DNA of 34,721 nt from Prevotella sp. (GTDB lineage Bacteria; Bacteroidota; Bacteroidia; Bacteroidales; Bacteroidaceae): contig JAILMS010000154.1 in NCBI GenBank assembly GCA_024692385.1, positions 1 to 34,721 on the forward strand, given 5' to 3'. The notes under the pieces are model-generated. The model was not told the DNA's origin, did not search any database, and saw only the letters and a list, made by a program, of their open reading frames with translations. How positions within the stretch are numbered: the stretch's first letter is position 1; every line of letters begins with the position of its first letter. The translations under genes and the position numbers were made by a program. Positions 19,644-27,879 of the stretch are shown one piece after another.

Positions 19644-19664
19644 CACCCGATTTAGCAAAGTGCT

Positions 19665-19745
19665 TATCAAGGGGTGCCCACGGTTGTGGGCTGAGATGAT
19701 ACCCTCCAACCTGACACGGATAATGCTGGCGTAGGGATGATAGAG
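19665..19745 (+). promoter_or_regulatory. TPP riboswitch (THI element)
   Basis: AGGGGTGCCC...GGGCTGAGATGATACCCT...ACCTGACACGGATAATGCTGGCGTAGGGA consensus; P1 TATCA/TGATA. Confidence 0.97.
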
Positions 19746-19794
19746 TAACTGAACAACCCCTTATTTTGTAGTATTAATAAATAAGGTAAAAGAA

Positions 19795-22087: not shown

Positions 22088-22668
22088 TGATGACACTAGA
22101 CTGGCTTGACATATTGACCACGATACTCGGCCTGATATACATCTGGCTGGAGTATCGTGCTCATATTGCCCTCTGGGTGATAGGTATCATCATGCCAGTA
22201 CTCGATGCCATTCTCTATTGGCAACATGGACTTTATGGCGATGCGGGTATGGCATGCTACTATACGCTGGCAGCCTTCTACGGCCTCTTCGTTTGGAAGT
22301 TTGTAAAGACACGTAAGAAGAAAGAGCCGTTGCCCATCGTCTATATGCCACGCAGCAAGTATCTCCCCGCCATTATCTTTTTCTTCGTGTCGTGGGGTGC
22401 CGTCTATTATGTCTTGATTACGTGGACAGACTCTACTGTTCCCGTGCTCGACTCGTTCACCAATGCCCTGTCGTTTGTAGGCATGTGGGCATTGGCTCGT
22501 AAATACGTGGAACAGTGGCTCTTCTGGATGGTGGTCGACATCGTCTGCACTATCCTCTATATACAAAAAGGAATTCCTTTCAAGGCAGGGCTTTACGGAC
22601 TCTATGTGGTCATCGCCATTGCCGGCTATTATAAATGGAGAAGCGTGGCGAAAAACATTAAAGAATGA
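22087..22668 (+). CDS. PnuC/PnuT-family transporter, probably thiamine
   Basis: Multi-TM protein between thiamine receptor and ThiN in a TPP-riboswitch operon; PnuC-like WLEYRAHIALWVIGI. Confidence 0.88.
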   Translation: MMTLDWLDILTTILGLIYIWLEYRAHIALWVIGIIMPVLDAILYWQHGLYGDAGMACYYTLAAFYGLFVWKFVKTRKKKEPLPIVYMPRSKYLPAIIFFFVSWGAVYYVLITWTDSTVPVLDSFTNALSFVGMWALARKYVEQWLFWMVVDIVCTILYIQKGIPFKAGLYGLYVVIAIAGYYKWRSVAKNIKE

Positions 22669-23282
22669 TGAAAGTAATATATGATGCTGTTATTGTGGCT
22701 AATGGGCAGTATCCAAGCCACAAAGTACCCTTAAACATACTCCATCGGGCAAAACATCTTATTGCATGCGACGGAGCCATTGTTCCCCTCCTTTGGGAGG
22801 GGTTAAGAGAGGCTTGCATCATCGGTGACGGCGACTCGGTACCAGAGGAGTATCGTGACCGCCTTATTCAGATAGAAGAGCAGGACGACAACGACCTGAC
22901 CAAAGCCACGCGCTACTGTGTGGAACATGGTTGGAAGCGCATCGCCTACATTGGCTGCACAGGTAAGCGTGAGGACCACACCTTAGGAAACATCTCGCTC
23001 CTGATGCGCTACTATCGTGACATGGGGGTCGATGGCACCATGTTTACCGATTACGGCTTCTTCACCCCTGCCTACGGCGATCGTAGCTTCCCATCCATGA
23101 AAGGCCAGCAGGTAAGCCTCTTCAACTTCGGCAGCCACCAAATCACCTCCGAGGGGCTCCGCTGGGATGCCTACGAATTCTCGGAATGGTGGCAAGGCAC
23201 CCTCAACGAAGCCCTCAGCAAGACCTTCTCCATCCAAGCTGATGGTTACTATCTGGTCTATCAGACCTACGACGTGAAATAG
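22665..23282 (+). CDS. thiN: Thiamine pyrophosphokinase
   Basis: CDGA...IIGDGDS...DDNDLTKA...GCTGKREDHTLGN; overlaps pnuC. Confidence 0.93.
   Translation: MMKVIYDAVIVANGQYPSHKVPLNILHRAKHLIACDGAIVPLLWEGLREACIIGDGDSVPEEYRDRLIQIEEQDDNDLTKATRYCVEHGWKRIAYIGCTGKREDHTLGNISLLMRYYRDMGVDGTMFTDYGFFTPAYGDRSFPSMKGQQVSLFNFGSHQITSEGLRWDAYEFSEWWQGTLNEALSKTFSIQADGYYLVYQTYDVK
22785..22815. repeat. GC-rich palindromic element embedded in thiN
   Basis: CCCCTCC-TTTG-GGAGGGG-TTAAGAGAGGCTT; 3' 20-mer matches the prmC copy at 17/20. Confidence 0.7.
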
Positions 23283-26973: not shown

Positions 26974-26982
26974 ATTATTTTC

Positions 26983-27010
26983 AACTTTCAACTATCAACT
27001 ATCAACTATT
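26983..27010. repeat. Period-7 tandem repeat AACTATC x4 (one variant each end)
   Basis: AACTTTC AACTATC AACTATC AACTATT. Confidence 0.95.
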
Positions 27011-27027: not shown

Positions 27028-27879
27028 ATGAATTACAATGAATTGTGGCACCAGTTGGCACCGCTCTATGGCGATGGCGAGGCAAAAGCTATCGCACAGA
27101 TGGTTTATGAAGTGCGCTTTGGCCTATCGCTGTCAGACCTTTACCTCGGCAAAGATACACAATTATCTGCAGACTGCCAAGCTGAAATGCAGGAAATTGC
27201 CGAAAGACTACTGCAAAACGAGCCCGTACAGTATGTATTGGGCGAAGCAACATTCTGCAGTCGCACATTCCATGTAGAGCCAGGCATTCTGATACCACGC
27301 CCAGAAACGGAGCACCTCTGCCGTCTCATCACAAAACATACTACGGATGGTTCCCCCATTCGTACCATTCTTGACATCGGTACAGGTAGCGGTTGTATCG
27401 CCATTACGCTGGCACTCGACATCCCGGGAGCGCAAGTCACTGCTTGGGATATCTCGCCTACTGCCCTGCGAGTGGCCAAAGACAACGCACAACGCCTGGG
27501 AGTAGACATCACCTTTAAAGAAGTTGATATGCTCAGCGTACCATACTCACCTCCCTATGGAGGGGTTGGGGGAGGCTTTGACCTCATCGTCAGCAATCCG
27601 CCTTACATCTGTGACAGCGAGGCCGAGCAGATGGATGCCAACGTGCTGGACTACGAACCAGAGACAGCCCTCTTCGTGCCTGATGATAATCCGCTACAGT
27701 TCTATGTACCCATTATGAACTATGCCCAGTCTGCCCTTCATCCTGGTGGACAACTGTGGTTAGAGACCAACCCACTATACGAAGAAATGATTGAGGAACG
27801 ATTGCTCGAACTGGGCTTCAACGTCATAGCCCACGATGACCAGTTTGGCAAGACTCGTTTTATTCAAGCCATACAATGA
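27028..27879 (+). CDS. prmC: Peptide chain release factor N5-glutamine methyltransferase
   Basis: IPRPETEHL; DIGTGSGCIAI; FDLIVSNPPYI; start MNYNELWHQ. Confidence 0.95.
   Translation: MNYNELWHQLAPLYGDGEAKAIAQMVYEVRFGLSLSDLYLGKDTQLSADCQAEMQEIAERLLQNEPVQYVLGEATFCSRTFHVEPGILIPRPETEHLCRLITKHTTDGSPIRTILDIGTGSGCIAITLALDIPGAQVTAWDISPTALRVAKDNAQRLGVDITFKEVDMLSVPYSPPYGGVGGGFDLIVSNPPYICDSEAEQMDANVLDYEPETALFVPDDNPLQFYVPIMNYAQSALHPGGQLWLETNPLYEEMIEERLLELGFNVIAHDDQFGKTRFIQAIQ
27546..27579. repeat. GC-rich palindromic element embedded in prmC
   Basis: CTCACCTCCCTATGGAGGGGTTGGGGGAGGCTTT encoding SPPYGGVGGGF just before the NPPY motif. Confidence 0.8.

Follow-up and report, generated by a model that had tools for sequence, protein, structure and literature searches.

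An in-frame palindrome in the PrmC gene of a Prevotella species as a probable copy of a dispersed repeat element

Introduction

Why does a conserved housekeeping enzyme carry a DNA palindrome inside its reading frame, a few residues before its catalytic motif? The question is raised by prmC of a Prevotella species, which encodes the release factor glutamine N5-methyltransferase. The window analysed here, the whole stretch of 34,721 nucleotides, belongs, as contig 171, to a draft genome of 2.23 Mb (79% complete) from a large genus. In the explanation we favour, to which we assign a probability of roughly 85%, the palindrome is one copy of a dispersed element of about 32–38 nt found in this genus and kept in tolerant gene loops, with no resident transposase found.

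The palindrome in PrmC

The open reading frame scores 220 bits against the PrmC model of NCBIfam (TIGR03534, cut-off 199), and its AF2 model has Escherichia coli PrmC with RF1 as its best PDB match (2b3t, TM 0.86). A sequence-only reading had placed a palindrome in frame ahead of NPPY, and the DNA there is exactly as it was quoted (Table 1). Beginning at the third base of the Tyr173 codon, the palindrome encodes residues 174–184 (SPPYGGVGGGF). They are bracketed by D167, in the VDML strand, and N190, in NPPY, and stand directly before the strand FDLIVSNPPY; the NPPY motif is invariant in the PrmC alignment.

Table 1. Features of the window that bear on the element, all on the forward strand
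Feature	Position	Strand	Basis
Thiamine pyrophosphokinase gene with second, decayed element copy	22665..23282	+	TIGR01378
Element copy 2, in frame, PLLWEGLREA	22784..22815	+	repeat family D15; relatives
prmC, release factor glutamine N5-methyltransferase, 283 aa	27028..27879	+	TIGR03534 above cut-off; AlphaFold model similar to 2b3t
Palindromic element copy 1, CTCACCTCCCTATGGAGGGGTTGGGGGAGGCTTT, in frame in PrmC	27546..27579	+	sequence; homologous copies in L125 and L127
Proximal hairpin CCTCC-CTAT-GGAGG	27550..27563	+	sequence; 62-copy consensus
Distal arm GGGGGAGG, alternative hairpin, can pair with the same left arm	27568..27575	+	DNA fold
NPPY catalytic motif, N190–Y193	27595..27606	+	sequence; alignment

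From D167 to N190 there are 24 residues in this protein, 19 in the element-free close relative L126 and 20 in the median of 100 orthologues, so the net gain is approximately 4–6 residues (about five), though the element encodes 11. The first estimate of 8–11 added residues was therefore too high, and part of the old loop must have been lost, either at once or later. Its expectation that the stretch from the acidic residue to FDLIVSNPPY is usually shorter in PrmC was borne out, as the loop is shorter in 78 of the 100 orthologues. Loop length varies in all of them, and several that lack the element reach 23–31 residues or more by means of other repeats. Orthologues free of the palindrome have other residues here and mostly a shorter loop, so the refuting outcome named in the sequence-only reading did not occur.

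In the AlphaFold model (mean pLDDT 87.6), residues 174–181 fall below a pLDDT of 50 and are flanked by strands 161–165 and 184–189. The model thus fits an element peptide sitting in a flexible, disordered loop between two core strands, which agrees with the initial proposal of a palindromic element tolerated in a surface loop, here a predicted one, of a conserved enzyme. Because the insert precedes strand 184–189, which ends in NPPY, Rossmann topology should place it away from the active site. It is probably located at the far strand end, though few residues separate it from NPPY.

A dispersed palindromic family

A search of the window for CCTCCNNNNGGAGGGGNNNGGGGAGGC with up to three mismatches returned two matches, an exact one at 27550 and one with two mismatches at 22787, where chance expectation from 100 dinucleotide shuffles of the window is 0.00. 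Beyond the window, the census of copies was made by pattern only. The pattern CCTCCN{3,9}GGAGGGGN{1,4}GGGG is present in 109 of 150 congeners and reaches 452 in one, a figure that counts overlapping matches and sums both strands. A reversed control pattern had almost no matches in the same 150 genomes, and a looser version of the element pattern is nearly absent from the sampled other genera of the order. In some genomes the element forms inverted pairs and arrays with a period of about 44 or 66 nt. Matches in L098 (a glycosyltransferase-like ORF), L099, L103 and L104 were judged to be native and set aside.

The consensus is approximately YYCCCCTCC-N3..8-GGAGGGG-YTGGGG(A/T)GG(C/G)TTT. In a profile of 62 non-redundant copies, conservation starts about 4 nt ahead of CCTCC and ends about 13 nt past GGAGGGG, which sets the unit at about 32–38 nt. 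This is an imperfect palindrome of many copies within the 20–40 nt range of repetitive extragenic palindromes (REPs). The 62-copy consensus contains neither a GTAG nor a CGTC tetranucleotide, the flanks of the profile reveal no terminal inverted repeat or target-site duplication (among few clean pairs of empty and filled sites), and Rfam gives no match at the element. The DNA fold z-score is only −1.3 for the PrmC copy of the window, compared with about −2 for the copies of relatives. The element is a dispersed palindromic family of a Prevotella-type genus, and no description of it was found for Prevotella or Bacteroidales among open-access papers.

The second match in the window, spanning 22787–22813, lies in frame within the gene for thiamine pyrophosphokinase (TPK). 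At these codons a near-perfect element is present in three close relatives, CDGAITPLLLEGLGEAVIIGDGDS in one of them, while outgroup enzymes have a shorter, unrelated segment at the site (e.g., CDGAVTSFPAAEVVIGDGDS). Comparison of the two groups suggests that about 18 nt were replaced by 30 nt. A chance match had been suspected here from the gap-free alignment to TPKs of canonical length, and was rejected on account of the near-perfect element in the relatives. Elsewhere in the window, a TPP riboswitch (19660–19754) lies upstream of a TonB-dependent receptor-like ORF.

In the same genome, further in-frame copies occur in LpxB, dihydroorotase, the linker of a LytTR-type response regulator and four proteins that we take, from sequence recognised by eye and with no search behind the names, to be DUF2520-like, DsbD-like, RluA-like and GH43-like. 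The former three were named by NCBIfam, the regulator below cut-off. Nine of the 13 recognised copies with resolved context in this genome, a small sample, are in frame inside conserved genes with the reading frame kept. So are about half of approximately 20 congener copies selected solely for their DNA match, also a small sample, with hosts that include Era, IspG and a PyrK-like protein. In one congener, the GTPase Era (L109:913–1923) still scores as Era although two elements, inverted relative to each other, lie within its frame.

Gain, loss and replacement at shared sites

Compared at the species level, the PrmC loop differs even among close relatives of the window genome, all of which are metagenome assemblies. 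L126 (84% identical in PrmC) has a short loop lacking the element, DMLQQTYQVAPQWDLIV, a single copy is present in L127 (79%), and L125 (87%) has two in tandem. Across the genus, each of the three reading frames is represented among the elements in this loop (L001; L008, L023 and L055; L015). The sequences include PLLYREGLGVGL in L023 and L055, with a close variant in L008, APSLWRGLGEAF in L015 and NPSLREGHRVGL in L049, while L036 has a partial element. On a tree built leaving out the loop columns, the state of the element requires seven changes, or six if the partial copy of L036 is left out, and well-supported branches force at least five. The copies in the window, L125 and L127 may share a single ancestral insertion, in which case not all of the frame differences are independent events.

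Other loops and other repeats show similar turnover. A second variable loop of PrmC, before motif I (about residue 107), holds the element in L036 and L042. In L002, L013, L016, L031, L034 and L043, tandem heptamers (CTCAATT, CTCTCAC and similar) fill the loop before NPPY. At about 26978–27010 of the window, immediately ahead of prmC, there are similar heptamers of sequence CAACTAT, and no description of heptanucleotide repeats in Bacteroides was found among open-access papers. In the PrmC orthologue L003, a deletion in the loop appears to have taken away the FDLIV strand ahead of NPPY, representing either a real deletion or an assembly error.

Among the five or six relatives compared for each protein, LpxB has none, one or two copies and the DUF2520-like protein one or none. 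The LytTR regulator linker of relatives contains either the element or another palindrome, approximately 90 nt long; in L180 and L181 this is an in-frame inverted repeat (CCCCTAAGTTAGGGG ... CCCCCTAACTTAGGGGG) at the site occupied by the element in the window genome. Likewise, the dihydroorotase loop is either of the element type or contains a third palindrome, TGTCGCGAT-NNN-ATCGCGACA, which is in frame in L165, L166 and L167 where the window genome has CCTCTCCTTTGGGAGAGG.

Alternative explanations

These observations bear unequally on the alternatives. A native PrmC loop whose codons are palindromic by accident would suit a protein in which loop length varies in every orthologue and element-free loops also grow long through other repeats. 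With a chance expectation of 0.00, it is ruled out for practical purposes by the dispersed copies of the same DNA at unrelated loci and by the empty orthologous site of L126. It is also improbable that the insert has been kept because it is useful to PrmC or regulates its mRNA as an RNA hairpin or G-rich structure. The sense strand is indeed G-rich and the insert persists in three related species, but its residues and frames differ by lineage, a close relative has an empty site, unrelated heptamers fill the same loop elsewhere, and pLDDT is low. Somewhat more can be said for palindromes made and turned over in place by local replication error, such as slippage or template switching, with no mobility at all, since the tandem doubling in L125, the tandem heptamers in the PrmC loop of other species and the partly replaced old loop look like products of such errors. 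As a full account this is nevertheless doubtful: it explains only duplication and decay, and the same long consensus at unrelated loci and in unrelated genomes needs copying from elsewhere.

The alternative with the best claim among these, though still unlikely, is a classical REP moved in trans as single-stranded DNA by a Y1 (RAYT) transposase. The size, hairpin, inverted pairs and arrays of the element resemble those of REPs and BIMEs, and Y1_Tnp genes are present in 87 of 150 congeners. However, none was found in the window's own genome (a 79% complete assembly), and the pattern matches 81 times in G003 and 68 times in G026, two near-complete genomes that lack Y1_Tnp. Copy number bears no relation to the presence of Y1 (p = 0.71), and the element is not enriched beside 18 Y1 genes (three seen versus 2.2 expected). 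The absence from the own genome, the lack of correlation and the lack of neighbourhood enrichment together led us not to file the element as a RAYT-linked REP. Moreover, Y1 genes are flanked by other palindromes, and the element consensus carries no GTAG or CGTC tag. The palindromes beside Y1 genes in L193, L195, L198 and L201, such as GCCCTGAAAGGGC and CCCAGGGCATCGCCCTGGG, look like the true REP partners of these transposases.

A possible route of spread and its consequences

Under the preferred reading of a dispersed element held in tolerant loops, copies would disperse across the genome as short stretches of DNA able to form hairpins. Our best guess is that some factor drives single-stranded or replication-linked, hairpin-based copying; no mover gene was found. 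Within genes, only those insertions would survive that preserve the frame and fall in a loop able to accommodate change. Stop codons are largely lacking from several frames of the element, and its short peptides are rich in Pro, Gly and Ser, properties by which surface loops and linkers would come to collect it. In this way the surface loops and linkers of housekeeping proteins (PrmC, TPK, LpxB, dihydroorotase, Era) could gain, lose, duplicate and replace the element.

For PrmC the data fit a tolerated, near-neutral insertion, and we infer that the element is similarly near-neutral in the protein. The sequence-only reading had gone further, proposing a continuing source of loop innovation. Loop change is the part of this proposal that fits, given the dispersal of the element, the differences among relatives and the many protein loops concerned. 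More tentatively, a Y1-independent element that replaces short coding stretches might act as an ongoing, genus-wide generator of loop variants, in loops that also host heptamer repeats and two or more further palindrome families. Empty, single and double states exist at one codon position among close relatives, so whether the element supplies new segments or is merely tolerated is directly testable with PrmC, TPK and LpxB variants. Variable Pro/Gly-rich loops in such genomes can be repeat DNA and not function.

Relation to known palindromic elements

By comparison with described systems, the element is of the same kind as the Rickettsia palindromic elements (RPEs) and intragenic REPs, and the family itself was not found described in the open-access literature. 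RPEs are palindromic selfish DNA located in frame in genes for conserved proteins, and different RPE families occur at the same loci (PMC3767692, PMC2229807). The Prevotella-type element shares the in-frame position of a palindrome within conserved genes. It is set apart by description: the first-described RPEs are 100–150 bp, whereas this element is about 34 nt, GC-rich, read in three frames and found in a genus of Bacteroidota. Other small non-autonomous repeats translated within genes include the enterobacterial ERIC/RU-1 elements and the 107-bp Correia element of Neisseria (PMC2229807). Unlike the Prevotella-type element, in which neither feature was seen, these MITEs exceed 100 bp and have terminal inverted repeats and target-site duplications.

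Intragenic REPs are palindromes of 20–40 bp that form dimers or arrays, some within ORFs, and in Xanthomonas recB different REPs occupy about the same place (PMC3733652). Short palindromes, arrays and copies inside ORFs are common to both, but most REPs are intergenic, whereas the Prevotella-type element has roughly half or more of its sampled copies in genes. The element also lacks the GTAG/CGTC tag, and no RAYT link was found for it. Discussion of in-frame selfish palindromes has centred mainly on Rickettsia, whose genomes are reduced, and on scattered REP cases; the short palindrome family described here behaves likewise throughout a large genus from gut and rumen.
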